A program made the translations under genes and the position numbers. From Verrucomicrobiota bacterium (GTDB lineage: Bacteria; Verrucomicrobiota; Verrucomicrobiia; Limisphaerales; UBA9464), in the NCBI GenBank assembly GCA_017309115.1, contig JAFLEF010000010.1:1-64000 (forward strand): a DNA stretch of 64,000 nt. Reading direction: 5' to 3'. This document shows, in pieces, positions 39,981-57,703 of the stretch. The notes below the pieces were generated by a model. It saw only the letters and a list, made by a program, of their open reading frames with translations, was not told the DNA's origin and did not search any database. Positions within the stretch are counted from its first letter, which is position 1, and each line of letters begins with the position of its first letter.

Positions 39981-41450
39981 CTACTTTGGGGTGAACGACC
40001 CCGTGGAGCTGGATTCCACCCCTGCTACCGCCGGGGCGCTTTCAAAACTGCCGCCCAAGGCGAGATGGAGGTTGATGTGGTTTGCCAATTGCGCGTTCCG
40101 CAGTTGGATGACGTTTTGTTGAGTACGGATCTGCGTTTCCTGGAGCTGGAGCACTGACAGAAGGTCCATGGAACCGGCTTCGTATTGAATCCGCGCAATA
40201 CGCACAGCCTCGGTGTTGCTGTTCAGGACCTTCTGCTCAAAGGCGAGGCGTTCGGCCAAGAGATTCTCATTCATCAATCCATTCTCGACTTCCCGAAAGG
40301 CCCGCAGTACCGCACTCCCATAAACTGACACGGCCTGTAACTGGGTCGCGGTTGCGATTTTAACCTCAGCCCGGAGGGCACCGCCCGTATAGATCGGCAC
40401 GTACATCCCGAGCGCCGCGCTGAACATCCAGGGATTAACCTGCAAAACGGACAACAAGTTGTCACTCAACTTGCCTCCGTCCAAGTTGAGGGAGAACGAG
40501 GGAAGCAGGGCCAATCGAGCCGCCTCTTGAAGGCGGAAGGCCGCCAGGACCTGACTTTCGGCGGCGACGAGGTCAGGACGCCGTTCGAGCAACGAGGACG
40601 GGAGACCCGGCTGGATGGGCGGCGGGACCGGAGTGTAGTGTTCGGCCACTTGAAGCTCAGCGCTGGGGTAGCGGCCCAAGAGCACCTCCAGGTTTCGTTT
40701 CGCATCACTGGCTGCTCCTTGAGCGGCGCGGAGCTGGCTCTGGGCGGCGTCCAAGTTTCCCTTCGCCTCAGCCACCTCCAAGTCGGCAATCTTCCCGGCG
40801 ACCCGACGAATTTTCACCAGGTCAAGGAGGCGCGAATAGATAGCGACGCTCTCTCTGGCTACGGCGAGAAGCTGGCTCGATTCCGTGGCGAGGTACCAAC
40901 TTTTGGCCGTGGTAGCGGCCAGGGATTGTCGCGCAAAATTGTACTCCAGGGCGGTGGCCTCGAATCCGGCTTGGGCACCCGCCTTCTGGGCGCGCAGCTT
41001 CCCCCAGACATCCGGCTCCCACGCGACTCCTGCCAAGCCCTGCCGCCCCTGGTACCAGTCGTCATGTCCGTCGTCCCGGGTGGACCGATGACCAAGATTC
41101 ATGCCGATCTGCGGCTTAAGGGATGCTCCCACCACCACGACATTTTGACGCGCGATCTCCACTCGTTCCGCTGCCGCTCGCAAGTCCAGGTTGTTGGTCA
41201 GAGCCTCGGCTACAATCACGTCGAGGACGGGATCGTGAAAGGTCGCCAGCCAATTGTTCGCGACCTCGTTCGTCGTTCGATCCGTTACCCAAGCGGGCGG
41301 AACGGTTGTCCCAGCGGGTAAGGCGTTGATGACGAGTTGGGAGTGGGACGGAGGCTTCGAAAGCCGACAGCCCGTCAACAACACCATCAGCAGAGCCATG
41401 GCAAAGACCCCGCACCAGAGTACTGCGAGCCGCGAACGATTGGACTTCAT
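39981..41450 (-). CDS. TolC/NodT-type outer membrane efflux lipoprotein
   Basis: 489 residues with a lipoprotein signal (MKSNRSRLAVLWCGVFAMALLMVLLTGC). Two repeated outer-membrane-factor domains are present, with the helical-barrel patterns QSLAATTAKSWYLATESS, IRRVAGKIADLEVAEAKGNLDAAQSQLRAAQ and RPDLVAAESQVLAAFRLQEAARLALLPSFSL. Trimers of this family form the tunnel through the outer membrane of tripartite pumps. It is the last gene of a minus-strand unit after an HlyD-type adaptor and a DUF3302 protein, with a 34-nt gap. Confidence 0.9.
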   Translation of the reverse strand: MKSNRSRLAVLWCGVFAMALLMVLLTGCRLSKPPSHSQLVINALPAGTTVPPAWVTDRTTNEVANNWLATFHDPVLDVIVAEALTNNLDLRAAAERVEIARQNVVVVGASLKPQIGMNLGHRSTRDDGHDDWYQGRQGLAGVAWEPDVWGKLRAQKAGAQAGFEATALEYNFARQSLAATTAKSWYLATESSQLLAVARESVAIYSRLLDLVKIRRVAGKIADLEVAEAKGNLDAAQSQLRAAQGAASDAKRNLEVLLGRYPSAELQVAEHYTPVPPPIQPGLPSSLLERRPDLVAAESQVLAAFRLQEAARLALLPSFSLNLDGGKLSDNLLSVLQVNPWMFSAALGMYVPIYTGGALRAEVKIATATQLQAVSVYGSAVLRAFREVENGLMNENLLAERLAFEQKVLNSNTEAVRIARIQYEAGSMDLLSVLQLQETQIRTQQNVIQLRNAQLANHINLHLALGGSFESAPAVAGVESSSTGSFTPK

Positions 41451-41484
41451 CGGATCTCACGCCCTGAGGCCGGTTTGAAGTTCA

Positions 41485-42642
41485 TTAAAATGGCATCGGG
41501 TAAAGCCAATTGGCCCAAGACGTGATTCGGAGGGAAATCCGTCGCAACGCGGCCCACGGCCCGCGCATTCCCTGAGTGTAAACGGCAGCCACGCCCTGCG
41601 CTCCAATCGGGAACTTCTCCTGATCGGGATCATCCAGCACGATGGCCACGGCGAAGCAGCCCTGAGGCAGTTTTGGGGGCTCCGGATTAAACACCGGAAG
41701 CGTGCCACTCGGCAGATACTGACCTTCGCCGCTGGCCCTCCAAATGCTTTGAACTTTGCCAGGAAATATCTGGCCCGGATACAAATCGAGCGCCACCTCC
41801 ACGGACTGGCCGTTGCTCATGTATTTGAGGATCTCCTGGGTATACGCCGCCAGCAGATAACGTCCGTCGTCACAGATGAAAGACGCAATAGCGCCGACGC
41901 GGAAGTCGCCCGCCACCATGCCGGGTCTGACTTGGAGGTTGATGATAAAGCCATCCTCGGGTGCAACCAGCGTGGTGTTGTTGAGATAGAACTTGGCGAG
42001 CGCCAACTCGGCATCCACCACCGCCACGCTGGTGTTCACGCCGTTGATCTCCGATCGGTACCGCAGCCGCGCCCGCTCCAATTCGGCCGCTGCCTCCTTC
42101 ACTGCTGCCTCGTTGACCTTGTACTGGGCGTCCCAACGTTGCGCGTCTTCCTCAGGACCGGCCCCCTGCTCTGCTAGGCTCACCGCAAGGTGCTTCTGGT
42201 ACTTCGCATAAACTGTCTCACTCTGACTCTTGGCCAGCTTTTGGGTGGCAACGTCGATATCCGATTTGAGAATCTGCACGCTCTGCTTCGCCTGAGCCAG
42301 CTTTGCCTCCAGACCGTCGACCTGAAACTGGTAAGGACGCCGGTCGAACTGAAACAGCGGCTGCCCCTTTCTGACCGGCTGATTCTGCTCAACCAACACG
42401 GCCGTCACCAGCGTCGGCTCAGGCAGGCGCGGCACCAACTGGATTGTGTGCTGGACCATTTTGGCATTGTTTGAGGCTGGCGTCATGAAGCGCAGCCCGA
42501 TGATAAAAATCAGGAGTACATGAAGCACGAAGAACGCACTGACCAGCGCCCAGCCGATGCTAAACTTCAGCCACTTGAATCTGAAAAAGACCAGCCAGAT
42601 GAACGCCGCAAAGACGAACAAGAGACCAAGGGCGAGTACCAT
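41485..42642 (-). CDS. HlyD/EmrA-family membrane fusion protein (YiaV/YibH-like)
   Basis: 385 residues. Two N-terminal membrane helices (about 2-20 and 29-50) are followed by the barrel-sandwich hybrid (PTLVTAVLVEQNQPVRKGQPLFQFDRRPYQ), a long coiled-coil region (about 115-210, QVDGLEAKLAQAKQSVQILKSDI onward) and the second half LVAPEDGFIINLQVRPGMVAGD. Family members join an inner-membrane pump to an outer-membrane channel. Its partners here are the DUF3302 protein upstream by 8 nt and the TolC-like lipoprotein downstream; the E. coli pair YiaV-YiaW has the same adaptor plus DUF3302 order. Confidence 0.9.
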   Translation of the reverse strand: MVLALGLLFVFAAFIWLVFFRFKWLKFSIGWALVSAFFVLHVLLIFIIGLRFMTPASNNAKMVQHTIQLVPRLPEPTLVTAVLVEQNQPVRKGQPLFQFDRRPYQFQVDGLEAKLAQAKQSVQILKSDIDVATQKLAKSQSETVYAKYQKHLAVSLAEQGAGPEEDAQRWDAQYKVNEAAVKEAAAELERARLRYRSEINGVNTSVAVVDAELALAKFYLNNTTLVAPEDGFIINLQVRPGMVAGDFRVGAIASFICDDGRYLLAAYTQEILKYMSNGQSVEVALDLYPGQIFPGKVQSIWRASGEGQYLPSGTLPVFNPEPPKLPQGCFAVAIVLDDPDQEKFPIGAQGVAAVYTQGMRGPWAALRRISLRITSWANWLYPMPF

Positions 42643-42650
42643 GGGGCGAA

Positions 42651-43055
42651 CTAGCTTTCTGGTGCCTGAGTTCTCCCGGGCGATTCATCCGCCGGAATTG
42701 GAGTGGTCGCCGAAGCAGAGGAGGTGGCTTGAAGGCGTGTCCGCTTCCCGCTCAGCCGTGCGATCTCCTCGTCGATCCCTTTCACTTCCTCCCGGGGAAG
42801 TCGTCGAATGTCCACGATATCGGTCGGCTTAAAGGCCCAGATGAAGGCCTGAATCCAAGGAATCGCGGCGAGAAAGCCGGCGTATCCCATCATTTGGACG
42901 GCCTCCGCGTCCGGGTGTTTGCGGGCAATGGCGATGCGCCCGGGCAAGCCCGCCAACCAAACCAATGAAATCAAGCCCGCCAGCACCAACAACGCCAGTA
43001 CCGCGAAGGTTGCGTAGTCCCAGAAATCGATCTTGAACCCCAGAAGAGTCTGCAT
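42651..43055 (-). CDS. DUF3302 (YiaW-like) inner-membrane protein
   Basis: 134 residues. Two membrane helices at about 12-35 (DYATFAVLALLVLAGLISLVWLAG) and 57-75 are preceded by MQTLLGFKIDFW and followed by a charged linker with PREEVKGIDEEIARLSGKRTRLQ. It ends in a Ser/Thr/Pro-rich tail. The pattern fits the DUF3302 family, found next to an HlyD-type protein in enterobacteria (YiaW with YiaV). The function is not known. It is 8 nt before the adaptor gene and 18 nt after the CMD-family gene. No classical RND, MFS or ABC pump is encoded in the unit, so this protein may be the inner-membrane partner. Confidence 0.8.
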   Translation of the reverse strand: MQTLLGFKIDFWDYATFAVLALLVLAGLISLVWLAGLPGRIAIARKHPDAEAVQMMGYAGFLAAIPWIQAFIWAFKPTDIVDIRRLPREEVKGIDEEIARLSGKRTRLQATSSASATTPIPADESPGRTQAPES

Positions 43056-43073
43056 GGCGGGAGACGTTCGGTT

Positions 43074-43844
43074 TTACGCAGAAGCGAGCCGCTCACCAGA
43101 CACTCCAGCGAGCTCCTCTGCGAGGACCGGCACGTTGAGGAGGGAGGCTCGTGCCTCGTGGATGACACACAGCTTCAGAACTTCGACAATCTCGGTGACC
43201 GTGGCCTGCTGGCGCAGGGCCGCTTTGAGGTGACGACGGATGCCGGGCTCGTACTGGCGCCTACCCGCGGCATTGAGAGCGATCAGTAAGAGTTCGACCT
43301 CCTTCGCCGACAGGACGGTGGAATTGTAGAGGTCTCGACCGCGCGCCATGAACTCGTCGAACCAATTAGGCGCAAGCTCCAGGACAGGGCTCCAGGCGTC
43401 GTCCCATTGGCCTCCGGCCCGCAGTTGGTCGCAGGCGGGAGTGGACCCGGGATTCTTGAGGCGTCTCTCGCGTTCTTCGGCCGCCTTATCCAAATCACCC
43501 ACGAACGCCTCTTGATTGAGAAGAGTGGCTCCCACAACAGCGGAGTGGATGGACATCACCGAGACGCATTTGAACACCAGAAGGATCTCGTCGCGCGTAG
43601 CACCAGCCGCGAGCGCGGAACGAAGATGATGTCGGGTGGCCGCCGAATTCTGGTTGGCGCCATTGAGGCCAATGGAAATCAGTTCGACGAGCTTTAGCGG
43701 TAGCACGCCGGAAACCCATGGGTTGGCGGACACCTTCGAGGACGTTTCGGCCCATTGGGGATCCCACTGATGTAATTGGTCTAGGGCAGCCTTCCACGGA
43801 TCGGTCAAAGGCGATGTGCCCGTTCGCTGGCATTCGTCAGTCAT
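43074..43844 (-). CDS. carboxymuconolactone decarboxylase (CMD/AhpD-like) family protein
   Basis: 256 residues with two CMD-type helical repeats: LPLKLVELISIGLNGANQNSAATRHHLRSALAAGATRDEILLV at about 48-92 (quoted in part: LKLVELISIGLNGA) and VELLLIALNAAGRRQYEPGI..ALRQQATVTEIVEVLKLCV at about 182-230. The AhpD-type CxxC disulfide centre is not present; the Cys residues (KCVSV, KLCVIHE) are single. It is therefore a structural relative rather than a peroxidase. It lies 97 bp after the HAD gene and 18 nt before DUF3302, at the join of the sulfatase and efflux parts. Confidence 0.85.
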   Translation of the reverse strand: MTDECQRTGTSPLTDPWKAALDQLHQWDPQWAETSSKVSANPWVSGVLPLKLVELISIGLNGANQNSAATRHHLRSALAAGATRDEILLVFKCVSVMSIHSAVVGATLLNQEAFVGDLDKAAEERERRLKNPGSTPACDQLRAGGQWDDAWSPVLELAPNWFDEFMARGRDLYNSTVLSAKEVELLLIALNAAGRRQYEPGIRRHLKAALRQQATVTEIVEVLKLCVIHEARASLLNVPVLAEELAGVSGERLASA

Positions 43845-43941
43845 AGATACTTTGATTGAGGAGGCACAATTCGCCGCTGGTGGGCGTCAGAAGCGTTCAG
43901 AAACTTCCTTCGAGTGCAGTCAATGAAGACGCGAGGTTCGA

Positions 43942-44961
43942 CTATTCTTCGAAGGCGAAGATCTTGTTCCAGTCGTTCTTCATGCTGATGACGATCCAGC
44001 CATCCTTCTTCGCCTTGTCGTAGAGCTTCTGGGTGAACGTACCGACTTTCGTGTCGGGCAGGCCGGTCGCCGGGCCGTAAGCGTATTCGCGTTTGGCGTC
44101 GTCGTGCAGGACGAGCATCGCGAGCCGGGCACCACTGCCCGCCCTGGTGTATTCGAGCATTTGCTGGTCGCCGGTGGAGTTGCCGAACGCCGCAACGGGC
44201 CGCCGGCCGATCATCAGATGGATGCCTTCGGGCTTGCCCGCATCGTTGTCGTTAAGCAGAAGCTTGGGTTCCTTGGTCAGAAAGGGTTGGCCGTCCTTGG
44301 CATAGCCATATTTCGTGCCGGCGGCCGTGCCAACGACCTGCTCCGGTGGGATACCGTAGGTCTTCTCGGAGTACTGGCGCACGAAATCCTGCCCGCCGCC
44401 GGTGACGATGAAGGTCTTGAATCCGTTCGCGCGAAGAAACTTCAGCACTTCCTGCATGGGCTGGTAAGTCAGCTCCGTGTAAGGCTTCTTCCAGCGCGGG
44501 TTTTTGGCTTCTGCGAGCCACTGCTTCGCCTCGGCCTCGAACGTCTCCACCGATATGCCGGTGAGTGTGGCAGCGGCGATCTTCAACAGGTCGTCCATGT
44601 TGAGTTTATCCATCGCGGCGCGGTCGCCGTGGAGCAACTCCAGCACGGTGCTGAAGGGTGCGACCTTCGCCAGTTCCGGCTTCTCCTTCACGAGCGCCGG
44701 GACGCGTTCAAGGCAATACATCACCTGCGAATACATCGGGTGCTCGACCCAGAGCGTTCCGTCCTGATCGAAGGTCGCGATGCGTTCCTCGGGCGGGACA
44801 AAGTTCGCGCCTCCAGTGGTCGTAGTCGTCCTGACGAAGTCCACGATGGCTTGCTTCGCCGGGCCGTCGTTCCACGACGGGAGCGGGTCCTGAGCGGATG
44901 TAGTGGTGAAACTGGTGAGGACAATCCCCAGCAGGGCAATGATATTGCGGACGGGTTTCAT
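43942..44961 (-). CDS. exported HAD-family hydrolase
   Basis: 339 residues from the ATG at 44961. The signal peptide is MKPVRNIIALLGIVLTSFTTTSA. HAD motif I appears as IATFDQDGTLWVEHPMYS (catalytic DxDGT), motif II as FIVTGGGQDFVRQ and motif IV as GNSTGDQQML. A helical cap follows motif I (YCLERVPALVKEKPELAKVAPF onward), as in phosphoserine phosphatase-like C-type members. A periplasmic phosphomonoesterase is the best guess. It lies 85 nt after the propeller gene. A hairpin (44990-45034) sits 28 nt before its start, like the one before the first sulfatase. Confidence 0.85.
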   Translation of the reverse strand: MKPVRNIIALLGIVLTSFTTTSAQDPLPSWNDGPAKQAIVDFVRTTTTTGGANFVPPEERIATFDQDGTLWVEHPMYSQVMYCLERVPALVKEKPELAKVAPFSTVLELLHGDRAAMDKLNMDDLLKIAAATLTGISVETFEAEAKQWLAEAKNPRWKKPYTELTYQPMQEVLKFLRANGFKTFIVTGGGQDFVRQYSEKTYGIPPEQVVGTAAGTKYGYAKDGQPFLTKEPKLLLNDNDAGKPEGIHLMIGRRPVAAFGNSTGDQQMLEYTRAGSGARLAMLVLHDDAKREYAYGPATGLPDTKVGTFTQKLYDKAKKDGWIVISMKNDWNKIFAFEE

Positions 44962-44989
44962 CGGTTTAGCTTCGTTAGTCCAATTCGTT

Positions 44990-45034
44990 GGTGAAGTCGC
45001 GGGCCGACCACTCGGACCGCCCGCGCGCTTAACG
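44990..45034 (-). promoter_or_regulatory. leader hairpin before the HAD gene, shared with the first sulfatase gene
   Basis: On the plus strand it reads ggtgaagtcgcgggcc, then a short variable loop, then ccgcccgcgcg; the inner gcgggc/gcccgc arms pair. The same outer sequences occur at 48637-48681 in front of the sulfatase 1 gene. Both are about 28-31 nt upstream of the start codon, so they sit in the 5' leader of the downstream gene. Function is unknown: terminator, attenuator or protein site. Confidence 0.6.
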
Positions 45035-45046
45035 ACCAGAGGCTTC

Positions 45047-47044
45047 TTAGAACGGGCGAACTTTGCCCATGCGCGGTGGCTGCACGGGAGCCGCGGCGCC
45101 GTAGATGACGGTGAAGCCCGAGCCCCCGCCCCAGGTTGAGATGGCGGTCGGCGGATTCGGGAGGGCGGCAGCCTCGGGGTTGTTCCAGTTGTTCGCCGCC
45201 CAGACGTTGCCCGCAGGGTCAATGGACACATCGGTCAGCATCTGGATGCTGCCGCTCTTAAACTCATGAATGACGTCGCCCGGCCTGGTGCCTGCGGGAA
45301 GCCCCTTCAAATCGGCCCCTGCCATCAGCAGCACGGCGCGATTTCGCGGCGAGAGGTTGCCGATCCAGACGTTGTTGTCGCCATCGATGTTCAAGCCCCA
45401 GGGAACCCCCACCGCGCCGCCGCCTGTGAAACCTTTGGCATCGAGCTGGGTGCCATCCGGGCGGATCATGTGAATGACGCCAGTGGGTTTCGGATAGGCG
45501 AGCATGGCTTGGCCCATGATCCTGAACTGCTCCATGATGGAAGCGCCGTCCGGCACCTTTGGCACCGGGAAGTCCAGCGACATGTTACTCGCTACCCAAA
45601 CGTTCTCGTGGGTGTCGAGCGCGAGGGCGCGCACGCCGATGCCAACGCGAAAGGTTTCCAATTTCGTGGGATCAGTGGCAGGAAACCGCACGAGCGTGTC
45701 GGACTGCGAATTGCTGACCCAGACGCGATTCTGCGAGTCAACCACGATGTCAAAGGGTGACCTCAGCCCCGCGACCTTGACGATGCGTCCGTCCTTGGGG
45801 CGCCCGCCGGGGAAATGCAGCAGCTGGTTATTCGAGCCATCGGCAATCCACACGTCGCCGTTGGCCGCGACACCGACGCCCATCAGGCCGAGGAATTTTT
45901 CTTTGAAGGGGAAGATGCTTTCATCGCCGATTGGTTTGCCGTCGAAATCCATCACCAGGATTTTTCCGTTGAAACTGGTGGCCCAGACATGATCGCGCGT
46001 CACGGCCGTGCCCCAGCCGACCCCGTCCAAGCCCATGCCGGTGAAGCCGGTGATCGCCGGTGAGAGCGCCGTTCCATTGGGGCTGAACTTGGTGACGCCG
46101 CCGCCGATGCTGCGTTCGACGCCCGACTGCGAACCGGGCATCCAGTTCTGACCGCTCCAGAGGTTTCCCTGGGCGTCGAACATGAACCGGCCATTCGCAT
46201 AGGTGCCGCCGCCCGCGAAACACAGGCTGAGCATGAAGTCAGGCGGCGGCCATGCAAGATAAGGCAGGAATGGCGCCGCGCGGCGCGAGCCATCCTTCGG
46301 CTGCGGGTAGGCCTCTTCAAACAAGGCGAAGAGTTCCTTGGGGTGAGCATACGAGGCACGGGCGATGCCCGCCATCGCTTCGAGCGTGTTCTTTGGCGTG
46401 GCTCCACCGGGCGACGTAGCAGCTGCGAAGAAACGCGCGCGCCAATCGTCGTTCACCACGGTGAAGCTGGCGGCGATGAGCGAGCTGAGCGTGTTCAAGT
46501 TTGCCAGCGCCGTGGTCTGGGTGCTGTTGAGCGGATCGAGTAGCACCTTCCCCCAGCCGCCGGTCACCGGATCGACGAGATTCGGCGTGTTCCCGGCGGC
46601 GATCTTCAGCCCGAGCGGCTGGCCGGAGATGACGTCGCCATTGATGAAGCGCGCGCAGGTGTAGGCTGACGCCACGGTGGTGAGTTCATTGACGGTCACC
46701 ATTTTGGTCGGCTGGCCGCCGAGCACAGAAAGCAGTGTGAGACCTTCGCTCCTGTCGTTCCCCGCCCTGGGCGTGCCGCCCCGCGCGACGATATAGAGCA
46801 CGCTGTCGGTGGGCGCATTTCCGTAGGTCAGGGCAAAAGAGCCATCCACGCCCGTCTTGCCTTGCGCTAGTTGGGTCGGCGCACCGGTGCCTGCGGCCCA
46901 GAGCGTCACGATCGATCCAGCGAGAGGCGTTTTCGCACCTATTACGATGCCCGTTAGCTCCGCGGCCTGCGCAAAGATGTTCGCTGATAAAGCACCCACA
47001 GCGACGAGCGCGATGAGGTACTGCTTCGTGTGTTGGTGTTTCAT
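45047..47044 (-). CDS. secreted NHL/streptogramin-lyase-type beta-propeller protein
   Basis: 665 residues from the ATG at 47044 with a signal peptide (LIALVAVGALSANIFAQA). The first part (about 25-95) is a carboxypeptidase-regulatory-like beta sandwich (ELTGIVIGAKTPLAGSIVTLW..GKTGVDGSFALTYG). From about 260 it is a six-bladed propeller with NHL-type blade endings (GNLWSGQNW, DHVWATSF, GDVWIADGSNNQLLHFPGG, NRVWVSNSQSDTLVRFP, ENVWVASNM, NNVWIGNL, GNVWAANNW). These proteins bind or sense ligands or partners; no active site is recognised. Sited 16 nt after sulfatase 1. Confidence 0.82.
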   Translation of the reverse strand: MKHQHTKQYLIALVAVGALSANIFAQAAELTGIVIGAKTPLAGSIVTLWAAGTGAPTQLAQGKTGVDGSFALTYGNAPTDSVLYIVARGGTPRAGNDRSEGLTLLSVLGGQPTKMVTVNELTTVASAYTCARFINGDVISGQPLGLKIAAGNTPNLVDPVTGGWGKVLLDPLNSTQTTALANLNTLSSLIAASFTVVNDDWRARFFAAATSPGGATPKNTLEAMAGIARASYAHPKELFALFEEAYPQPKDGSRRAAPFLPYLAWPPPDFMLSLCFAGGGTYANGRFMFDAQGNLWSGQNWMPGSQSGVERSIGGGVTKFSPNGTALSPAITGFTGMGLDGVGWGTAVTRDHVWATSFNGKILVMDFDGKPIGDESIFPFKEKFLGLMGVGVAANGDVWIADGSNNQLLHFPGGRPKDGRIVKVAGLRSPFDIVVDSQNRVWVSNSQSDTLVRFPATDPTKLETFRVGIGVRALALDTHENVWVASNMSLDFPVPKVPDGASIMEQFRIMGQAMLAYPKPTGVIHMIRPDGTQLDAKGFTGGGAVGVPWGLNIDGDNNVWIGNLSPRNRAVLLMAGADLKGLPAGTRPGDVIHEFKSGSIQMLTDVSIDPAGNVWAANNWNNPEAAALPNPPTAISTWGGGSGFTVIYGAAAPVQPPRMGKVRPF

Positions 47045-47060
47045 GATTTGGTTGGTCGTG

Positions 47061-48605: not shown

Positions 48606-48636
48606 GGTTCGATTTTGGATTTCGCCCGGTTTCGAA

Positions 48637-48767: not shown

Positions 48768-50480
48768 CTATTCGCTCGGGTGCCTCGACTGCTGAACTTC
48801 CTTCAGAATGCCGGAAAGATTGTAAGTCTCGGGCGCTTGCAGTGGCGGAAACTCCGCGTACGACATCAGCTCTTTCGTCCACAACAACTGGCCAATGGGC
48901 AGAATGTTCCAGTCATACAAATAGGCGGTACTGGGTGAGGCCAGCGCACCACCCAAGCCCATCGCCGTCTTTTGATCCTCCAACCCGACGGCCTGCTCGA
49001 AGGGATCGCGCTTGATGTTCTGGATCATCGTCCAGTGATAGGTCGTGAGGGGCGAGAACCAGCCCGTAGCCCCGGCTGGTGCCATGGAATAATAGAACTT
49101 CCAATTCTTGTACCGGACGGCCGACGGCGTGGCACCTGCATAGTAGAAGAAGTAGTCCCGGGCCGATTTGTCCGACTTACCGGTGAGGTAGTCGAGTTGG
49201 TTCACGCCGTCGAGTGTGGTCTTGACGATGCCCGGATACTCGCCTTTCTGAATCTTCGCCTTCAACTCGTTGCCCTTGGCGCCACCGGCGATTTCCACAA
49301 ACGTCGGGACCCAGTCGAGGGAGGCAAATATCTGGTTTAGCACCGTACCCGGCTTGATGACGCCCGGCCAGCGGATGACGCACGGAGCGCGATAGCCGCC
49401 TTCCCAGGTCTGACCCTTCTGGCCCCGGAACGGGGTGATGCCGCCATCAGGGAAGGACACCGTCTCGGCGCCGTTGTCCGTGGTGAAGACGATGATGGTA
49501 TTGTCCATTTCGCCCATCTCCTCCAGCTTCTTGAAGACGTAGCCGATGTTGTCGTCCATCTGCTTCATGCCGGCTTCATTGGCGCCCCAGTCTTTGCCAC
49601 CCTTCGTGCCGATCATGTCTTCATACTTCGGCGAAAGTACGGTCGTGACGTGCATGCGGGCCGGGTTGTACCAAACGAAGAAGGGCTTGCCGGTTTTCTT
49701 CGGGTTGTTGCGGTCAAGGAAGTCGATGACGTGAGAGGAGATTTCCTCGTCCACAGTCTTCGAACGTTCCAGCGTCAGCGGGCCTTCGTCCTTGCCCATC
49801 TGGTTCTTGGCCGTGCCATCCGGAGACTTCATCCAGATCACGGGGCGCGGAGGCGTCAGGCACACGCCGGTTCTGGGGTCAATCGCGCCGGGGACTTGAG
49901 GGATGCCAGGGATCGGTTCCTGCATACACGGCGGCGCGATGGCCTGCACGGTCGGGCTACTGTTAATGTCCGGGAAGCTCACCTGCTGCATGGCATCGAG
50001 ATGATACAGGTAACCCCAGAATTCCTGAAATCCGTGCGCCGTGGGCAGGGAATCGGGATGGTCGCCCAGGTGGTTCTTTCCGAACTCGCCGGTGGAGTAA
50101 CCGAGATCCAGCAGGAACTTTGCGAGCACCGGCGTGCCCGGTCGCAGATACGATGGGCTGCCGGGCAGCTGCGGCGGGATCATGCCTGTGCGTAGCGGAT
50201 ACATTCCGGTGATGAAGGCGTTGCGCCCGGAGGTGCAGCTCTGCATGGCAAGGTAGTCCATCATGATCGCGCCTTCCTTGGCGATTCGGTCAATGTTCGG
50301 TGTTTCCCCGACCATCAGGCCCCGGTGATAACAACTCGGCTGCATCCAGCCGATGTCATCGCCCATAATGAACAGGATGTTGGGTTTCTTGTCGGCCGCC
50401 TCGACTGGTAAGAGAGCGCTGGTTAAAGCCGCCGCCGCACAGAGCAGCGACAGGCCGTGATAGCTGGCTTTTGATTTCAT
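48768..50480 (-). CDS. secreted sulfatase, second of two
   Basis: 570 residues from the ATG at 50480 with a signal peptide (LSLLCAAAALTSALLPVEA). The active-site segment is MQSCTSGRNAF, with Cys82 in a C-T-S-G-R motif, so the third position is Ser rather than the classic Pro or Ala. Metal sites are IMGDDIGWM (Asp41/42) and VFTTDNGAETVS; GKNHLGDHPDSLPTAHGF and PARMHVTTVLSP contain the other catalytic residues. The C-terminus is longer than in sulfatase 1. It lies 4 nt after the maturase gene, so coupling with its activator is likely. The substrate (aryl sulfate or carbohydrate sulfate) is unknown. Confidence 0.93.
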   Translation of the reverse strand: MKSKASYHGLSLLCAAAALTSALLPVEAADKKPNILFIMGDDIGWMQPSCYHRGLMVGETPNIDRIAKEGAIMMDYLAMQSCTSGRNAFITGMYPLRTGMIPPQLPGSPSYLRPGTPVLAKFLLDLGYSTGEFGKNHLGDHPDSLPTAHGFQEFWGYLYHLDAMQQVSFPDINSSPTVQAIAPPCMQEPIPGIPQVPGAIDPRTGVCLTPPRPVIWMKSPDGTAKNQMGKDEGPLTLERSKTVDEEISSHVIDFLDRNNPKKTGKPFFVWYNPARMHVTTVLSPKYEDMIGTKGGKDWGANEAGMKQMDDNIGYVFKKLEEMGEMDNTIIVFTTDNGAETVSFPDGGITPFRGQKGQTWEGGYRAPCVIRWPGVIKPGTVLNQIFASLDWVPTFVEIAGGAKGNELKAKIQKGEYPGIVKTTLDGVNQLDYLTGKSDKSARDYFFYYAGATPSAVRYKNWKFYYSMAPAGATGWFSPLTTYHWTMIQNIKRDPFEQAVGLEDQKTAMGLGGALASPSTAYLYDWNILPIGQLLWTKELMSYAEFPPLQAPETYNLSGILKEVQQSRHPSE

Positions 50481-50484
50481 GATT

Positions 50485-51642
50485 CTATTTTGAATTTTCC
50501 GAGCTGACAGGGTTGTGCTGGTCGGCAGACAAGACGCAGCGAAAGCCGATGTGCGACATGCCGGTGTCGTAATCCGTCCCGCGCCGGGCACTCGGGCGGT
50601 AGTTCACGCAATAGTTTTCCGCGCAAAGGAAGGAGCCACCTTTGGTCACCCGTTGCAGAGCATACGGTTCCCGGGGATTGAAGCTGCGGCGGGGTCCGGC
50701 GGGATTCTGGCAGACCGGGTCGGCCGCCAGCGTTCGGTGCTGATTCACGTCGTACCAATCCGCACACCACTCCCAGACGTTGCCAATCATGTCGTAAAGT
50801 CCATAGCCGTTCGGCGGAAAGCTCTTCACGGGCGACGATCCGACGTATCCATCCTCACGGGTGTTCTGGTTGGGAAACTGCCCCTGCCAGACATTCGCCA
50901 GAATCTTGCCTCCCGGGCGAAACTCCCCACCCCAGGCATAACGTTGCCCATTCTTGCCCCCGCGGGCAGCGAACTCCCACTCCGCCTCGGTCGGCAGTCG
51001 CTTGCCCGCCCATGTTGCATATGCCACGGCATCTTCGTAGGCGATCTGAACCACCGGATGATTTGCCCGCCCATCGAGGTTGCTATTGGGGCCTTCGGGG
51101 TGGAGCCAGTTTGCGCCCGATGTCCAAGTCCACCAAAGGGTGAAGTCATCGCGGGCCGGCGCCTCTTTCGGGGGAGTAAAAACGAGCGAGCCCGCTACAA
51201 AGCGCTCGGCGGACGGTTTTGGCGTGCCCGGTGGAAGCCCCCTTTTAAGTTCCTCCCAGTCCGGTACGCGCTCAGCGACTGTGAGGTATTTCGTGGCGGC
51301 AACGAACTTGGCGAACTGCTCATTGGTGACCTCAGTTTCATCCATCCAGAACCCATCCACTTTCACGCGGTGCGCTGGCCGCTCGGTCGCGTAGGCCTCG
51401 GACTCGTCCGTCCCCATCGCAAACTCCCCGCCCGGAACCCAAACCATCCCCGGTGGCGTAGGCGGCACGGTCGGGGCCGTTTCCGCAGCCGACATTCTAA
51501 CCGTCAGTGAGAGCGCTAGCAGCGCAACCGAAGCGCGGACTTGGAGAATTGGACACGAATGGAGACTCCCGATTGGCCGTTGGACCCAGTGAATGACGAA
51601 GTCCAAGAGCAACGACCATCTGCCGAGGAATGATTTTTTCAT
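50485..51642 (-). CDS. formylglycine-generating enzyme (sulfatase maturase)
   Basis: 385 residues from the ATG at 51642; an exported protein with a hydrophobic segment at about 35-52. The SUMF1 domain from about residue 65 shows MVWVPGGEFAMGTDE, DETEVTNEQF, RLPTEAEWEFAARGG, YGLYDMIGNVWEWCADWY and VTKGGSFLCAENYCVNYRPSARRG. Cys340 and Cys345 match the human FGE pair Cys336/Cys341, and GFRCVLSA ends the domain, so it should be catalytically active: it oxidises the Cys of the neighbouring sulfatases to formylglycine using O2 and copper. It overlaps almost directly with the second sulfatase (4-nt gap) and follows the barrel gene after 19 nt. Confidence 0.92.
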   Translation of the reverse strand: MKKSFLGRWSLLLDFVIHWVQRPIGSLHSCPILQVRASVALLALSLTVRMSAAETAPTVPPTPPGMVWVPGGEFAMGTDESEAYATERPAHRVKVDGFWMDETEVTNEQFAKFVAATKYLTVAERVPDWEELKRGLPPGTPKPSAERFVAGSLVFTPPKEAPARDDFTLWWTWTSGANWLHPEGPNSNLDGRANHPVVQIAYEDAVAYATWAGKRLPTEAEWEFAARGGKNGQRYAWGGEFRPGGKILANVWQGQFPNQNTREDGYVGSSPVKSFPPNGYGLYDMIGNVWEWCADWYDVNQHRTLAADPVCQNPAGPRRSFNPREPYALQRVTKGGSFLCAENYCVNYRPSARRGTDYDTGMSHIGFRCVLSADQHNPVSSENSK

Positions 51643-51661
51643 GGCCACATCCGGACTTCCT

Positions 51662-52546
51662 TTACTTCGGGAATAAGACCTGAATCTGCGCCCGAAGTTG
51701 CCATTCCGGTCCGTCGGTCGGAGTGCGCACATTGACATAGGCGCTGAGCTGACAGTTTAACGGGAGCCTCCCGAGGTGAACGATTTTCCCCACACCTCCG
51801 CCCACCGGAATGACCCAGGCCTCCCGGGCCGATTCCCGCCAATTCGCCGTCAGGATCGGGGCACTCGTCAAATACCACCCCTGAGGCAGGTTGTAGTTGA
51901 TGAACGGTTGAACGAGCAGTGCGCTGACGCTCTCGTCGCCCCAACCGGCGTAGGACCATTGCTGATTGGCCAAAACACCCACGACCCAGTGGCCCTGCAT
52001 CGTCAAAGCCACCGCTGCCGGCCCCGCAGTCCACATGCCGTGGCCAAGGATCGAGTCGGTCGCGGTGGGCAGGGTCAGGGTCGGACCAACACCCCAGATC
52101 AGTTTACCGGAGTGAGCCGGTGACAGAAAGAACGTGGGATTGATGTCCCCGAGCCCAAAGGCACTGGAGACTCCCGGCGCCGGTGAGGGCTGGTTAATGA
52201 TCGGCATGATCGTCCGGGTGATCAGATTCCAATCCGAACTGAGCGAGATGGGGATCACGGGTTGGACGTTGAGGATCCACTGCGTGACTTCGTTGGGACC
52301 GAGCCCGAAGTTGAAATTGTTCTGAAACGGAACACTGATCAGATTTGCCACCGGGTTCTGGGCCGCTTTAGCGAGTGCTTCCGTCTGGGCTTCCCGGTCG
52401 CCACCGCCGCCGGAGTCGGCGCTCACGGCCGGCGCCAAGGTCAAGGCCTTGGGGTAGTTGGTCGTTACGGGAAAGGCTGGCTCACCCTGGCCTGTAACTG
52501 CGACGAGCACGAGTCCCGTGGCTGCTGGAAGAAGGGCGTTATTCAT
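51662..52546 (-). CDS. outer-membrane beta-barrel protein (family often labelled neuromedin U)
   Basis: 294 residues with a signal peptide (MNNALLPAATGLVLVAVTGQG). Diagnostic stretches are NPVANLISVPFQNNFNFGLG, VTQWILNVQPVIPISLSSDW and NLITRTIMPIINQP, then a run of alternating strands. The C-terminal residue is Lys, preceded by QLRAQIQVLFPK, in place of the usual terminal Phe. The family name from animal homology is misleading; bacterial members look like outer-membrane porins related to phenol meta-pathway transporters. Here it probably brings the sulfated compound to the sulfatases. It follows the orphan receiver by 45 nt. Confidence 0.75.
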   Translation of the reverse strand: MNNALLPAATGLVLVAVTGQGEPAFPVTTNYPKALTLAPAVSADSGGGGDREAQTEALAKAAQNPVANLISVPFQNNFNFGLGPNEVTQWILNVQPVIPISLSSDWNLITRTIMPIINQPSPAPGVSSAFGLGDINPTFFLSPAHSGKLIWGVGPTLTLPTATDSILGHGMWTAGPAAVALTMQGHWVVGVLANQQWSYAGWGDESVSALLVQPFINYNLPQGWYLTSAPILTANWRESAREAWVIPVGGGVGKIVHLGRLPLNCQLSAYVNVRTPTDGPEWQLRAQIQVLFPK

Positions 52547-52591
52547 CGTTCATTGACTGATTCGAACCTACGGAAGTGAGGGTGGGTCGGA

Positions 52592-52990
52592 CTATGGCAC
52601 CTTAGGGCCGACCGGCTCTTGGGGTTCGAGGGCTTGGTGAATGAGGTCCAGAAACGCGGTGTCATCAAAGGGCTTTAGGAGAAAAGCCAAAGCCCCTGCC
52701 GCCAATGCGGCGGCTCTGACCCCCGGTTGTTCACGGCCCGACATGACAATCACCCGAGTTTGCGGGGAGACCTCCTGCAAGCGCAGCTGTACTTCCAATC
52801 CCGTCGTGCCCGTGAGCCAGAGGTCCAGGACCGCGAGTGATACCGACTGGCGGGCGGCATGTTCCAGGAGTTCCTCCGCTTTCTCGAACAAATGGGAGGA
52901 GTACCCATCGGAATCGAGGAGGCGCCGAATCGAACTCAGCACGAAGGCGTCGTCGTCCAGGATGCAGATGATGTCGGAGGCCTCGGGCAT
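52592..52990 (-). CDS. single-domain response regulator receiver
   Basis: 132 residues. A CheY-like receiver: acidic pocket LDDD at 11-14, phospho-acceptor Asp56 in LAVLDLWLTG, Ser/Thr switch in IVMSGREQ and Lys in FLLKPFDD. No output domain follows; the C-terminus ends EPVGPKVP. A relic of the same C-terminal coding end is found between this gene and the FixJ-type gene (53045-53066), so receivers in this region appear to have been duplicated and partly lost. It may be a phosphate sink or an adaptor for the neighbouring kinase. Confidence 0.87.
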   Translation of the reverse strand: MPEASDIICILDDDAFVLSSIRRLLDSDGYSSHLFEKAEELLEHAARQSVSLAVLDLWLTGTTGLEVQLRLQEVSPQTRVIVMSGREQPGVRAAALAAGALAFLLKPFDDTAFLDLIHQALEPQEPVGPKVP

Positions 52991-53044
52991 AGTGCCCCCG
53001 GTTGGAGGAACGATCGGAAGTTTGGGTCAGGAGCCAAGAGTCGG

Positions 53045-53066
53045 CTATGGCACCTTGGGGCCGACC
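53045..53066 (-). repeat. direct repeat of the 3' end of the orphan receiver gene
   Basis: 22 bp here match positions 52592-52613 with one mismatch. The two copies encode the same GPKVP-stop end in the minus strand, but at this site the rest of the receiver gene is missing. It lies in the 102-bp gap upstream of the orphan receiver. The simplest reading is a receiver gene duplicated and mostly deleted. Confidence 0.7.
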
Positions 53067-53092
53067 CTTGCGGCTATCCCCGCATTCCAAGA

Positions 53093-53773
53093 TCAATGTC
53101 CCGGAGCTGCGGGATCGATTCCGGCTTTTTGGGCGAGCCGGGTCAGCTCCGCGACCGAGACCACTCCCATCTTCTGAAATACCCGGCTGCGATGGGTCTT
53201 GGTGGTGCGGAGTGCCGCCCCTAGCTCTGCTCCGATCTGTTTGTTTAGCAGTCCGGCAATCATCAGCCGGAACACCTCGAATTCCCGAGGCGTCAGGCTG
53301 GCCAGGCGCGCGCGGATCTCCGCCAACTCCCGACCCGCTCGCCTCATCGCTGACGACCGCTCCAGTGCGCGCCCGACCGCTTCGACGAGTTGTTCGTCGT
53401 GAAACGGCTTGGGTAGGAAATCCACCGCTCCCCGCTTCATGGCCTGAACTCCCATCGGAATGTCGCCATGACCGGTGATGAAGACGATTTGTTCTTCGCG
53501 CCCATTTCTGGTGAGCCATTGCTGGAGCTCCAGCCCGTCCAGGCCCGGCAGACGAACGTCCAACACGAGACAGGACGGACCCGGGTGAGCAGGACGTTGG
53601 AGAAACTCATTCGCTGTGGCGAACGTCTCCGCCTCGTAGTCTCCGGACTCGAGCAGATTGACTAAACTTCGGCGCACCGAGGGATCGTCATCGACCACAA
53701 ACACCCGCGGCGGGAGATCCACGGATTCGTCCCGCCCACTAGTAGTTCCGGTCGGTAGGTTCGATTGATTCAT
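53093..53773 (-). CDS. FixJ/NarL-type response regulator with LuxR-type HTH
   Basis: 226 residues. Receiver 25-140 (VVDDD, Asp72 in LVLDVRLPG, Lys in PKPFHDEQ) and LuxR-type HTH from about 155: LTPREFEVFRLMIAGLLNKQIGAELGAALRTTKTHRSRV. It is the FixJ pattern of phosphorylation-driven transcription activation. Its ATG overlaps the kinase stop by 4 nt (ATGA), and GGAGGA 8 nt upstream lies in the end of the kinase gene. Its likely targets are the barrel/FGE/sulfatase genes downstream. Confidence 0.92.
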   Translation of the reverse strand: MNQSNLPTGTTSGRDESVDLPPRVFVVDDDPSVRRSLVNLLESGDYEAETFATANEFLQRPAHPGPSCLVLDVRLPGLDGLELQQWLTRNGREEQIVFITGHGDIPMGVQAMKRGAVDFLPKPFHDEQLVEAVGRALERSSAMRRAGRELAEIRARLASLTPREFEVFRLMIAGLLNKQIGAELGAALRTTKTHRSRVFQKMGVVSVAELTRLAQKAGIDPAAPGH

Positions 53774-56700
53774 GGGATAAGTCCTCCGTTCGCGGCCAAT
53801 GGCCGGGGATTCTCTGTTCCGGGCGATGCTTCATCCGGAAGCCAGAAGGCAAAGCAGGCCCCTCCGCCCTCGGCGTTGCTCGCGGTGATGCGACCGCCAT
53901 GTCCCTCGACAATGGAACGAGCAATGGCCAATCCCAGCCCCATCCCGTTTCGCTTGTTGGTAAAGAAGGGCTTGAAAACCCGATTGGGATCCTCCTTCGG
54001 GAGGCCACCCCCGAAATCCCGCACGCTCACCTCCACCCGACTGTCGGACCCCCGTTGGGTCCGCACAATGATCCGCCGAAACTCGGGCGGCCCTTGGTCG
54101 ACGGCATCCAGAGCATTCAGGATCAGATTCAGGAAGACCTGCTGAATCTGCACGCGATTGCCGTTCACCGGAGTAAGGGAGGAGTCGAATTCGGCAATGA
54201 GGGAACACTGTCGGCCAAGGGCATCAGGCCCGGCCAATTTCAGGATCTCCGCCGCCGCCGCATTCAGATCAAAAGGTCGCCGCTCGTCATCACCCCGACG
54301 GATCATCGCCCGAATTCCCTGAAGAATCTCGCCCGCCCGCCGGCCGTCGGCGGAAACCTCCTCCAGCAATCCATCGAGCTTTTGGAGATCGCCCCGTCCC
54401 TTGGCGATGAACCGTCGGCCCGCCGCCGCGTTGTTGACCATGGCGGTCAGCGGCTGATTCAACTCGTGGGCCAGTGCTCCTCCGAGTTCGCCCAGGAGAG
54501 TGGCCCGCGACAGATGAGCCAGTTCACTTTGTTGTTCCCGTAGCGCCTGCTCCGTTCGCTTGCGATCCGTAATGTCGAGCGAGACTCCACGCATCAGTAC
54601 GGGCCGGTCAGCCTCGTCCACCTCGACCAGCCCGCGGGACGCGATCCAACGAGTTTCGCCCCCGGGGAACACAATGCGAAACTCGGTATCGTTGGCGGTG
54701 GGATCCTGAACTACCCGGCCCAAGACTTGCCGAGCGGACTCACGATCTTCCGGATGGATCCGCTCGAGCACCTTCTCCAAATCCAGACGAACCTGCGAAT
54801 CCAAGCCGAAGAGGTGTCGCCACGCGTCGCTCGCCCACACTTCCTGGGTGACGAGGTTTCTCTCCCAGATCCCGAGATTGGCGGCGCGGGCCGCGAGATT
54901 GACCCGCTGTTCCAATCCGGACAACGCCCGCTGATGGGCCAGTTCCTCCTGTTGGAGGTGCAGCTTGCGGCGGGCGAACATCCACACCAGCGCAGCACCA
55001 CTGCCGGCAAAGCCGAGAGCCGTCAAAAGCCGAAACCAAGCCGTCTGCCAGTAATACGGCAAGATGGTCAGCGCCACGACCGTTCCTGATTCATTCCACA
55101 CACCGTCCGGATTGGCGGCGCGCACGTGAAAGGCATAGGTGTTGGGTGGGAGATCGTGGTAATAGGCCACCCGCCGATTCCCCACGTCGATCCAATCGCC
55201 GTCGTGACCATCGAGCCGGATTTGGTAAGCGACTTTCTCGGGAGCACCCAGACTGAGTCCGACGTAGTGGACTTCGATCCTCTGACTTCCCGGAGGCAAC
55301 GTCACCGGAGCGGAGAACGGGGCGCGAACACGAATCGGAGGTCCCTCCGGCTGAGTCCGCGGGCTACCTGTCTCCCTACGCGGTGGAGTCGGCTCAAAAT
55401 ACGAAATTTCCTCCACGTGCACCGGAGGGGGTGTGGGATTGAGGTTCCAGGTGGACGGCTGCGTCATTCCGACACCCTTGCTCAGGGCAAACCACAGGCA
55501 GCCCTGGCCATCCAAGGCACAGTTGGGCTGCCGGTTTTGGGAAAACTCGCCGCCCGGCAAACCATCTCCGGCATCAAACATTTGGAATGGAGGCCTGCTA
55601 ATTCGGCCATCGGCCAAAGCCTCCAGATCCCGCCGACTGACGCGGAACAGATGGCTGCTGGAGGTGATCCAGAAGTTGCCCTCCCAATCCTCAATCAGTC
55701 CGTGGATGGCCGGAGCCGGAAAACCACTCTCCAACCCCAGCACCTTCAGTGTCCCTTGATGCCAACGCAGCAACCCCCGGTCCGCAGATCCCATCCAAAC
55801 TGCGCCCGCAGCATCCGAATACAGGCAGCGAATGTTCGGAATGGCGTGGTGGGCCGCATCTTTGACCTCGACCACCGCGGCGGGGCCCTCTGTGCGAAAG
55901 ACCCCTTCGGCATTCGCCATCCAGATCAATCCAGCCGGATCCTCGGCAAAGCAGGTCACCGTGCCTCGAGGAAGCCCATTTTCCCGACCGAATCGAGTGG
56001 ACGTTTCTCCGTCGGAGACGGCGACTCCGCTACCTCCGCTGATCCAGATCCTCCCGCGGGAATCCTCAAACAAGGCGTGGATGTTGTGTCCTCCCGTGTC
56101 CTGGGCCGGCAGGTGCCGGGGGCCGTCGGGATCCATCCGCCAAACCGCGGAATCGGTGGTTCCAACCCAAAGGCGACCTGAGCGATCCGCGAGAACACTT
56201 TTGAGATAACGCTGATCGCGGATGACCTGCGGGAGATTCACGGGCTTCGGCCCTGCCTCGTTCAAACGAAACAATCCATCACCAAACGTCCCGGCCCACA
56301 GGTCCCCTTGGGAATCGAGTGAGATCGACTGCACGGAACGGGGACGGGACTCGCTGTCGAGAGGAAGAGACTGAAAGCGCCGAGGAACGAGTCGGACCAA
56401 GCCACTTCCGCTGGTTCCCAACCATAGATTTCGCTCCCGATCTTCGAAGATGCACCGGGTCTGGTTGACCCCGCCGTTGGAGGAATTCCATCGGATCAGC
56501 GTTCCATCCGGCAACACTTGGCAAACCCCCTGATCGAAGGTGGAGATCCAGATGTGGTGAGCAGAATCTTCGAACATGCTCCAGACGCCACCGGGAGGTT
56601 CCGATAGTTCGATCCGGGAGACCTCCCGACCTTTTTGAATTTTGCGCAGTTCCTTTCCCAGAATCAGCCACAAGCCACCTCCCCGGGCCGGGGCGATACC

Positions 56701-57435
56701 CACGGATTCGCGCGACAGATTCGGCAGGTTCAACATCCGGATCCACTGGTCCTTCTCCCATCGTCCGACGAACTGATTCTGCACCACCCACCAATGGCCG
56801 TCTTCGTCCACCCCACCCTGATAGCCCTGGCCCGGTTCACCCGGCGGCGGCGGCAACTCCGAAAACTTGCCGTTGTTAAACTCAAAGAGCTTTCCGTTGA
56901 AGCCGGTGATGAGAATGTCGCCATTGCTCCGCTCCGCAAAGGAGCGGGCGTAGTCACCCCTCCAACCCTGATCCGAATGCAAATGCTGCCATTGGTCTCC
57001 ATCGCGCAGGACCAATCCCTGATACGTGCTGATCCAGAGTCGCGCCCGTTGGTCGAGGTGCAGATTGACGATCCCAGCGCTGGGGAGCATCGGCGTGTTT
57101 GCCGGATTTAGCGTGGCGAACTCGGTTCCATTAAAGCGAACGAGACCATTGAAGGTGCCAAACCAGAGGTAGCCATCCGGACCTTGGACAACGGCCGTCA
57201 CGGAGTTGTCCGGCAGACCGTCCTCAATTTCCCACGATTTGGTGAGGAACTTCGACGGGGATTTCGTAGGAAACTGGAGCCCTTGGGCTCGCCCGGGAAC
57301 GATCTCAACGAAGACTGTCAGAACCGCGAGGATCAAGCCCGCGATGGTTTTTCGGCAACCAGGGGACTTCGTTTGGCCGACAGGCGCGACCAAACCCGCG
57401 CTGCAATGTCCCAGGATCTTCAATCGGTGAGACAA
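53770..57435 (-). CDS. two-component propeller sensor histidine kinase with Y_Y_Y and PAS domains
   Basis: 1221 residues from a TTG at 57435 (no ATG fits; the start is uncertain). After an N-terminal signal segment, a double propeller (about 60-650) is made of the two-component regulator blades (LPDNSVTAVVQGPDGYLWFGTFNGLVRF, and similar GxxWxGT turns). A Y_Y_Y beta-sandwich (about 700-790: LPPGSQRIEVHYVGLSLGAP, LPPNTYAFHVRAANPDGVW) precedes a membrane helix near 815 and a PAS domain (about 860-960). HisKA has the FixL-like HELNQPLTAMVNNA and the ATPase domain ends GMGLGLAIARSIVEGHGG. Such sensors in Bacteroidetes control polysaccharide loci. The cognate regulator follows at once. Confidence 0.92.
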   Translation of the reverse strand: MSHRLKILGHCSAGLVAPVGQTKSPGCRKTIAGLILAVLTVFVEIVPGRAQGLQFPTKSPSKFLTKSWEIEDGLPDNSVTAVVQGPDGYLWFGTFNGLVRFNGTEFATLNPANTPMLPSAGIVNLHLDQRARLWISTYQGLVLRDGDQWQHLHSDQGWRGDYARSFAERSNGDILITGFNGKLFEFNNGKFSELPPPPGEPGQGYQGGVDEDGHWWVVQNQFVGRWEKDQWIRMLNLPNLSRESVGIAPARGGGLWLILGKELRKIQKGREVSRIELSEPPGGVWSMFEDSAHHIWISTFDQGVCQVLPDGTLIRWNSSNGGVNQTRCIFEDRERNLWLGTSGSGLVRLVPRRFQSLPLDSESRPRSVQSISLDSQGDLWAGTFGDGLFRLNEAGPKPVNLPQVIRDQRYLKSVLADRSGRLWVGTTDSAVWRMDPDGPRHLPAQDTGGHNIHALFEDSRGRIWISGGSGVAVSDGETSTRFGRENGLPRGTVTCFAEDPAGLIWMANAEGVFRTEGPAAVVEVKDAAHHAIPNIRCLYSDAAGAVWMGSADRGLLRWHQGTLKVLGLESGFPAPAIHGLIEDWEGNFWITSSSHLFRVSRRDLEALADGRISRPPFQMFDAGDGLPGGEFSQNRQPNCALDGQGCLWFALSKGVGMTQPSTWNLNPTPPPVHVEEISYFEPTPPRRETGSPRTQPEGPPIRVRAPFSAPVTLPPGSQRIEVHYVGLSLGAPEKVAYQIRLDGHDGDWIDVGNRRVAYYHDLPPNTYAFHVRAANPDGVWNESGTVVALTILPYYWQTAWFRLLTALGFAGSGAALVWMFARRKLHLQQEELAHQRALSGLEQRVNLAARAANLGIWERNLVTQEVWASDAWRHLFGLDSQVRLDLEKVLERIHPEDRESARQVLGRVVQDPTANDTEFRIVFPGGETRWIASRGLVEVDEADRPVLMRGVSLDITDRKRTEQALREQQSELAHLSRATLLGELGGALAHELNQPLTAMVNNAAAGRRFIAKGRGDLQKLDGLLEEVSADGRRAGEILQGIRAMIRRGDDERRPFDLNAAAAEILKLAGPDALGRQCSLIAEFDSSLTPVNGNRVQIQQVFLNLILNALDAVDQGPPEFRRIIVRTQRGSDSRVEVSVRDFGGGLPKEDPNRVFKPFFTNKRNGMGLGLAIARSIVEGHGGRITASNAEGGGACFAFWLPDEASPGTENPRPLAANGGLIP

Positions 57436-57651: not shown

Positions 57652-57703
57652 CACCTTTCCCTTGCTACCTCTCAGCTTTCCCCGCCCGCCTACCGGAGAT
57701 CCG

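Follow-up and report, generated by a model that had tools for sequence, protein, structure and literature searches.

Formylglycine sulfatase genes joined to a DUF3302-HlyD-channel gene set in a Verrucomicrobiota bacterium and elsewhere: a possible modular pathway of desulfation and export

In Escherichia coli, an HlyD-type adaptor is paired with a DUF3302 protein in YiaV/YiaW and in YibH/YibI; DUF3302-HlyD pairs thus reach as far as E. coli, and we know of no job for them. Here we describe a row of genes in which a pair of this kind stands with sulfatase genes, found in the first 64,000 nt of contig JAFLEF010000010.1 (assembly GCA_017309115.1, a Verrucomicrobiota bacterium of the Limisphaerales); this whole stretch is called the window below. 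The row consists of 13 open reading frames (ORFs), all on the minus strand and running from 57435 to 39981, which in gene order encode a sensor histidine kinase, two response regulators (RR1 and RR2), an outer-membrane beta-barrel, a formylglycine-generating enzyme (FGE), two sulfatases (S1 and S2), an NHL propeller protein, a HAD hydrolase, a CMD protein, a DUF3302 protein, an HlyD-type adaptor, and an outer-membrane channel.

The row can be read as a sensing head (kinase, RR1, and RR2), a desulfating middle (barrel, FGE, S1, S2, propeller, and HAD), and an exporting tail (DUF3302, HlyD, and channel). We propose, with about as much conviction as doubt, that these parts form one modular, horizontally shared envelope pathway through which a sulfate ester comes in, is desulfated in the periplasm, and leaves as product. 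The barrel would admit the ester, which is probably amphipathic; the FGE would convert the active-site cysteines of S1 and S2 to formylglycine; S1 and S2 would desulfate the substrate in the periplasm, where the HAD protein, as a phosphatase or a related hydrolase, may also process it; and the DUF3302-HlyD-channel conduit would expel the product, e.g., a more hydrophobic and possibly toxic desulfated compound, with the two-component system switching the gene set on. The proposal is built on gene content and order, on sequence motifs, on the barrel's fold, and on genes that recur in linkage and co-occur across genomes; co-transcription, the substrate, the order of the steps, the energy source, and the direction of transport are things that we infer. 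The recurrence of large parts of the row in unrelated bacteria suggests one working pathway. That the pathway is new to the literature, spreads horizontally, and couples desulfation to export, with formylglycine sulfatases and a HAD enzyme of the periplasm passing what they make to a DUF3302-HlyD-channel conduit that lacks a pump, we put forward more tentatively, as a possibility that we doubt somewhat more than we believe.

An earlier note on this DNA had tied the exporter genes to the sulfatase genes from their position alone. The tie is now backed by other genomes, although not as a fixed unit, and the joint order, whose absence elsewhere was to count against it, does recur: sulfatase-HAD occurs with DUF3302-HlyD, in some cases with the channel, across several phyla, and the HlyD involved belongs to more than one lineage. 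For instance, in a Limisphaerales genome, one contig end (L056) carries a barrel, a kinase, two regulators (28-31%, hence not clear orthologues), S1 (75%), and HAD (86%), and a second contig (L127) carries HAD (91%), DUF3302 (86%), HlyD (81%), and the channel (64%). No exact overlap of the two contig ends was found, and in BLAST they overlap by 143 nt at 99.3%, so that S1-HAD-DUF3302-HlyD-channel spans both. A member of the Rhodocyclaceae (L057/L131) has the order S1-HAD-PpiC-S2-DUF3302-HlyD-channel, and ORF calling places two small ORFs on the opposite strand ahead of S2. A 27-kb Rhodopila contig holds seven of the 13 families (S1, HAD, S2, DUF3302, HlyD, a propeller at 66%, and a barrel at 48%); a Na/H exchanger follows HlyD there, and the channel has no match. 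A second Rhodopila locus holds S1, HAD, adaptor remnants, a barrel, and a propeller. At three Bradyrhizobium loci, S1 lies near a DUF3302-HlyD-channel set with another adaptor lineage (27-33% identity, in its own clade); the set points away from S1 at two of these (L053 and L054) and follows FGE-S1-HAD on the same strand in Bradyrhizobium sp. SSUT77 (L095). In a distant member of the window's phylum (L150), 6.3 kb of one strand encode DUF3302 (35%), HlyD (31%), a barrel (32%), a sulfatase (32%), and HAD (52%), and a LysR-like ORF, recognised by eye, lies on the opposite strand between HlyD and the barrel.

For the comparison of co-occurrence, HlyD was counted as window-type at E <= 1e-60. Among the 77 S1-bearing genomes, which are those of the best 80 S1 loci, window-type HlyD was found in 8 (6/29 + 2/48), with fragments in a ninth (G449), and the next full-length HlyD match in the first batch reached only 34%. 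It was found in none of the 245 S1-less genomes in the G461 family sample (249 less 4 with S1) and was likewise absent from the phylum sample outside the window's own genome (386 genomes, best match 33%); at E <= 1e-130, S1 is present in one of the 387 phylum-sample genomes, the window's own. With taxa mixed and kinship uncorrected, the Fisher p values are 1.4e-8 for 8/77 against 0/631 S1-less genomes and 8e-6 against 0/245. In a tree of 18 chosen adaptors, the window falls within a clade of eight (window, Limisphaerales, Rhodopila, Rhizobacter, Burkholderiales, Rhodocyclaceae, and two Accumulibacter entries) with support of 100/99, where, according to a program warning, some long branches meet.

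Of 362 relatives of S1 in species genomes, the best 80 were analysed. They share 66-78% identity in the best segment and come, going by the titles of their records, from alpha-, beta-, and gammaproteobacteria, planctomycetes, Verrucomicrobia, Gemmatimonadetes, myxobacteria, Synechococcus, a Bacteroidetes metagenome-assembled genome, and others. Neighbours were counted by tblastn (E <= 1e-5, best label per place) in flanks of at most 10 kb, many of them cut by contig ends, so that all counts are lower bounds: HAD at 43 loci, an S2-like sulfatase at 30, FGE at 19, RR1 at 17, the kinase at 16, the barrel at 9, HlyD at 6, DUF3302 at 5, the channel at 4, the propeller at 2, and RR2 at 1. The ORF directly after S1 (85 S1 ORFs) is HAD in 18 cases, S2 in 14, and unlabelled in 39; the one directly before is FGE in 13 and unlabelled in 49. 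Plasmids of rhizobia carry relatives of S1 at up to 70-72% identity. Of three such loci read, those of Rhizobium sp. T136 and R. leguminosarum ATCC 14479 have HAD, a second sulfatase, a kinase, and two regulators, and the one of Ensifer canadensis has S1, then HAD (77%), plus an alkylsulfatase. That S1 travels with HAD, S2, FGE, and the kinase-FixJ pair speaks for the proposed pathway. Two plasmid loci with more distant relatives (L015 and L016) have the sulfatase and none of HAD, second sulfatase, kinase, or regulators, and at five sulfatase loci of near relatives (L119, L122, L124, L125, and L126) the other unit genes are absent but for one FGE. Seven of 83 loci have, at a distance of 0.6-2.4 kb from S1, a member of the metallo-beta-lactamase alkylsulfatase family, unrelated to S1 in fold and recognised by Pfam in one case and by clustering in the rest; this favours sulfate-ester chemistry.

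Another neighbour of S1 is a protein some 790 residues long that has both multihaem cytochrome and TPR matches, present in 15 of 83 loci (L012, L014, L025, L027, L032, L033, L038, L039, L042, L043, L046, L050, L068, L086, and L096) and within 100 nt of S1 in seven of them.

Both S1 and S2 (Sulfatase domain, 145 and 154 bits) carry the C-x-[P/A/S]-x-R motif of FGE-activated, S1-type sulfatases; across the 85 S1 ORFs, the motif region reads QSCTSGR in 39, QSCTAGR in 38, and neither in 8. Among solved structures, PsFucS1 (7aj0) comes closest to S1 both in sequence and in fold; human arylsulfatase A and steroid sulfatase follow in the fold search. Deducing the substrate from the S1 model was given up, as its pLDDT of 72 is mediocre and the folds that it matches include fucan, arylsulfatase A, and steroid sulfatases alike. 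Besides its domain, the FGE has both C-terminal cysteines, in the stretch GGSFLCAENYC, the two-cysteine motif of the aerobic enzyme, and a stretch of this type was matched in 15 of the 17 FGE neighbours of S1. The HAD protein scores 40.2 bits against a cut-off of 27 for PF12710 and has a solved relative in 4ovy (E 1.2e-83); its HAD motif, DQDGT (DxDGT), makes it a putative dephosphorylating enzyme. The earlier note had also counted the CMD protein as part of the module, but CMD was found at none of the 80 S1 loci and is probably incidental. The propeller was tried as a marker and set aside, with no match in 72,556 plasmid records and matches in two of the 386 other phylum-sample genomes (41%). 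At L056 (6379-6458), between barrel and kinase, there are 7- and 19-residue pieces that match the C-terminal end of the propeller, possibly a gene remnant.

Neither the barrel nor ten of its homologues has a Pfam match, the Phenol_MetA_deg model included. Nevertheless, the AlphaFold2 model of the barrel (mean pLDDT 82, confident beyond residue 46) has as its best PDB match the COG4313 channel 4rl8 (Pput2725) at E 1.2e-7, with FapF next. This fold upholds the earlier suggestion of an import channel as far as the channel is concerned. Channels of the COG4313 group have been proposed to take up hydrophobic molecules (PMC4493636). The window barrel is like them in fold and unlike them in its 17% identity and its missing Phenol_MetA_deg match. 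Fold and proposed uptake together speak for a channel and offer a hint that the substrate is amphipathic; they prove neither.

The same-direction row had been read correctly from the letters, including its order and the ATGA overlap of kinase and RR1 (Table 1). Once the starts are placed at likely signal peptides, the distances between neighbours in gene order are -4 (ATGA), 102, 45, 19, 4, 162, 16, 85, 97, 18, 8, and 34 nt. Twelve of the 13 proteins have at least one Pfam match above the curated cut-off, the barrel being the exception, and two scores are marginal (DUF3302, 32.6 bits against 32; HlyD_D23 in the adaptor, 30.1 against 30). Export and membrane location were assigned by hydropathy alone, which gives signal-peptide-like starts on S1, S2, propeller, HAD, and barrel, membrane segments in the adaptor and DUF3302, a lipoprotein-like channel, and a hydrophobic FGE N-terminus. 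The envelope is where most of the proteins are expected to work. Between 39000 and 58500, promoter-like matches (2 against 4.1) and terminator-like matches (17 against 18.6) do not exceed those in shuffled sequence, and the scans therefore neither support nor exclude internal promoters; a sigma-54-like pattern gave 23 matches against 20.55 expected, i.e., no signal. The GC content is even across the window (0.574-0.65 in 2-kb steps).

Table 1. Coordinates of the 13 genes in the window, in gene order, with the evidence for each assignment
Gene product	Position	Strand	Evidence and remarks
Sensor histidine kinase	53770..57435	-	Pfam: Reg_prop propeller, Y_Y_Y, PAS, weak HisKA, HATPase; TTG start
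RR1, FixJ-type response regulator	53093..53773	-	Pfam: receiver and LuxR-type helix-turn-helix
RR2, receiver-only regulator	52592..52990	-	Pfam
Outer-membrane beta-barrel, COG4313/FapF-like fold	51662..52546	-	AlphaFold2 model and PDB fold match; no Pfam
Formylglycine-generating enzyme (FGE)	50485..51642	-	Pfam FGE-sulfatase, 288 bits; hydrophobic N-terminus; start 51642 chosen in analysis (longest ORF reaches 51738)
Sulfatase S1	48768..50480	-	Pfam; CTSGR at modified cysteine; signal-peptide-like N-terminus; start chosen in analysis
Sulfatase S2	47061..48605	-	Pfam; CTAGR; start chosen in analysis
Exported NHL/Reg_prop propeller protein	45047..47044	-	Pfam; start chosen in analysis
HAD hydrolase	43942..44961	-	Pfam; DQDGT; signal-peptide-like N-terminus; start chosen in analysis
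Tandem CMD protein	43074..43844	-	Pfam
DUF3302 small membrane protein	42651..43055	-	Pfam
HlyD/YiaV-like adaptor	41485..42642	-	Pfam; two N-terminal hydrophobic segments by hydropathy
Outer-membrane channel, NodT-type OEP	39981..41450	-	Pfam; TIGR01845, 256.8 bits against 210.05; lipoprotein-like N-terminus

Upstream of the kinase, the same strand encodes a 780-residue BspA-type leucine-rich-repeat protein (57704-60046). A 133-nt direct repeat (57517-57649 and 60336-60468, 86% identity) also lies there, its copy just upstream of the kinase being a partial remnant of the 3' end of the FG-GAP gene at 60335-62062. The 14-mer GGGAAAGCTGAGAG, which the genome contains 71 times while a control pattern has 0 matches, occurs in the window at 39909-39921, 57669-57681, 60298-60310, and 179-191 (minus strand); copies stand just beyond both ends of the 13-gene run and nowhere within it. 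A mobile-element reading of these edge copies was rejected on account of the 71 genome copies. A Na/H-exchanger-like gene follows the adaptor in two Rhodopila loci (L024, 19988-21244, by Pfam; L026, 5111-6367, by near-identical sequence), and the window also has a Na_H_Exchanger gene at 34990-37029 on the plus strand. In an Accumulibacter genome, the window-type DUF3302-HlyD-channel trio is followed by a protein of 919 residues (L129, 12516-15275) that has an MGH1-like glycoside hydrolase match.

Several results weigh against the proposed pathway. The 13 genes, presented earlier as one unit, were not seen all together in other genomes, and most of the 80 S1 loci lack an exporter within the fetched flanks, as the HlyD count above indicates. 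The window-type trio is on a different contig from S1 in G467 and G470, and in two Accumulibacter genomes it stands about 15-17 kb away from S1, on contigs matched by length. Bradyrhizobium G725 has a broken window-type adaptor with DUF3302, S2, and a partial FGE, its S1 being on another contig. At L152, kinase (45%), RR1 (58%), RR2 (47%), DUF2092, an ORF, DUF3302, HlyD, and channel form one run with no sulfatase. "Efflux" in the strict sense, which the tail had been credited with, is not supported, nor is a tripartite pump: Pfam finds no inner-membrane pump gene, i.e., no RND, MFS, or ABC domain, within 39981-57435 (a pump elsewhere was not sought). Neither the energy source nor even the direction of transport can therefore be taken as proven. 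The co-occurrence test, moreover, ignores phylogeny. Ten adaptor loci were fetched from the phylum sample (L149-L158): sulfatase-side genes stand at L149 and L150, two-component genes at L152 and L153, weak sulfatase matches only at L151 and L157, and neither side at L154, L155, L156, and L158. At L137, on a contig that also holds the S1 of L045, DUF3302-HlyD-channel is divergent from kinase-RR1-RR2. Head-tail and middle-tail sets thus exist apart, which indicates that the parts combine freely, and the window has all three. Some of these results would suit two adjoining operons with separate jobs, sulfatase scavenging and a two-component-regulated DUF3302-HlyD-channel set, whose shared direction is incidental: L152 unites head and tail without a sulfatase, G467 and G470 show no linkage of the trio to S1, four of the ten adaptor loci have neither side, and the gaps of 97-162 nt could hold promoters. 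We nevertheless regard this arrangement as unlikely, given the repeated sulfatase-exporter linkage with different adaptor lineages and the co-occurrence.

S1 and S2 might instead desulfate the sugars of a sulfated polysaccharide, with the exporter serving detoxification or envelope stress during feeding. The kinship of S1 to PsFucS1 fits this, as do the 23 sulfatase-family matches in the host genome and the placement of freshwater Verrucomicrobia sulfatase genes near glycoside hydrolases (PMC5615132). However, Pfam finds neither a glycoside hydrolase or lyase gene nor SusC/SusD within 39981-57435, which does not qualify as a polysaccharide utilisation locus; after PsFucS1, the S1 fold search ranks arylsulfatase A and steroid sulfatase; and the barrel resembles channels proposed for hydrophobic molecules. 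We consider glycan desulfation somewhat improbable. The enzymes could also remodel the cell's own envelope, e.g., a sulfated or phosphorylated surface compound rather than an outside substrate, which would agree with their exported appearance in hydropathy, with a unit free of cytoplasmic catabolic genes but for CMD, and with the presence of a related adaptor gene, yiaV, in E. coli. S1 is, however, patchy and mobile, being found on plasmids, in many phyla, and in the single phylum-sample genome noted above, and we think remodelling very unlikely.

All parts of the proposed desulfation and export pathway are known families, and we could not find their recurrent union described; among the titles and abstracts listed by our literature search, which left most subscription journals outside, none is on the joint module, and this is weak evidence of novelty. 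Nor could we find a substrate for S1 and its HAD partner, which span many phyla. Their repeated union would give two orphan families, S1-HAD and DUF3302-HlyD, one context, namely sulfate-ester processing with product export, and if desulfation is indeed coupled to export, this would be the first pathway context for the DUF3302/YiaV pair.

Compared with YiaV/YiaW and YibH/YibI of E. coli, the window likewise has DUF3302 adjoining an HlyD-type adaptor (28.6% identity to the yiaV product), and qualifies as a pair of that kind with DUF3302 just above its cut-off; unlike them, it adds a channel after the pair and sulfatase, HAD, and FGE genes before it. The Shinella acesulfame sulfatase locus (PMC11500405) is similar in that a mobile formylglycine-dependent sulfatase has an exporter gene (TauE/SafE) nearby; it differs in having an amidase and a LysR regulator, and the available part of the report mentions no HAD, adaptor, or outer-membrane channel. 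The operon-like sulfatase clusters of Planctomycetes (PMC4807772), as far as the available part of that report describes them, share with the window co-directed sulfatase genes of mixed origin; those clusters are linked to polysaccharide enzymes, however, and not, as here, to an adaptor-channel set.

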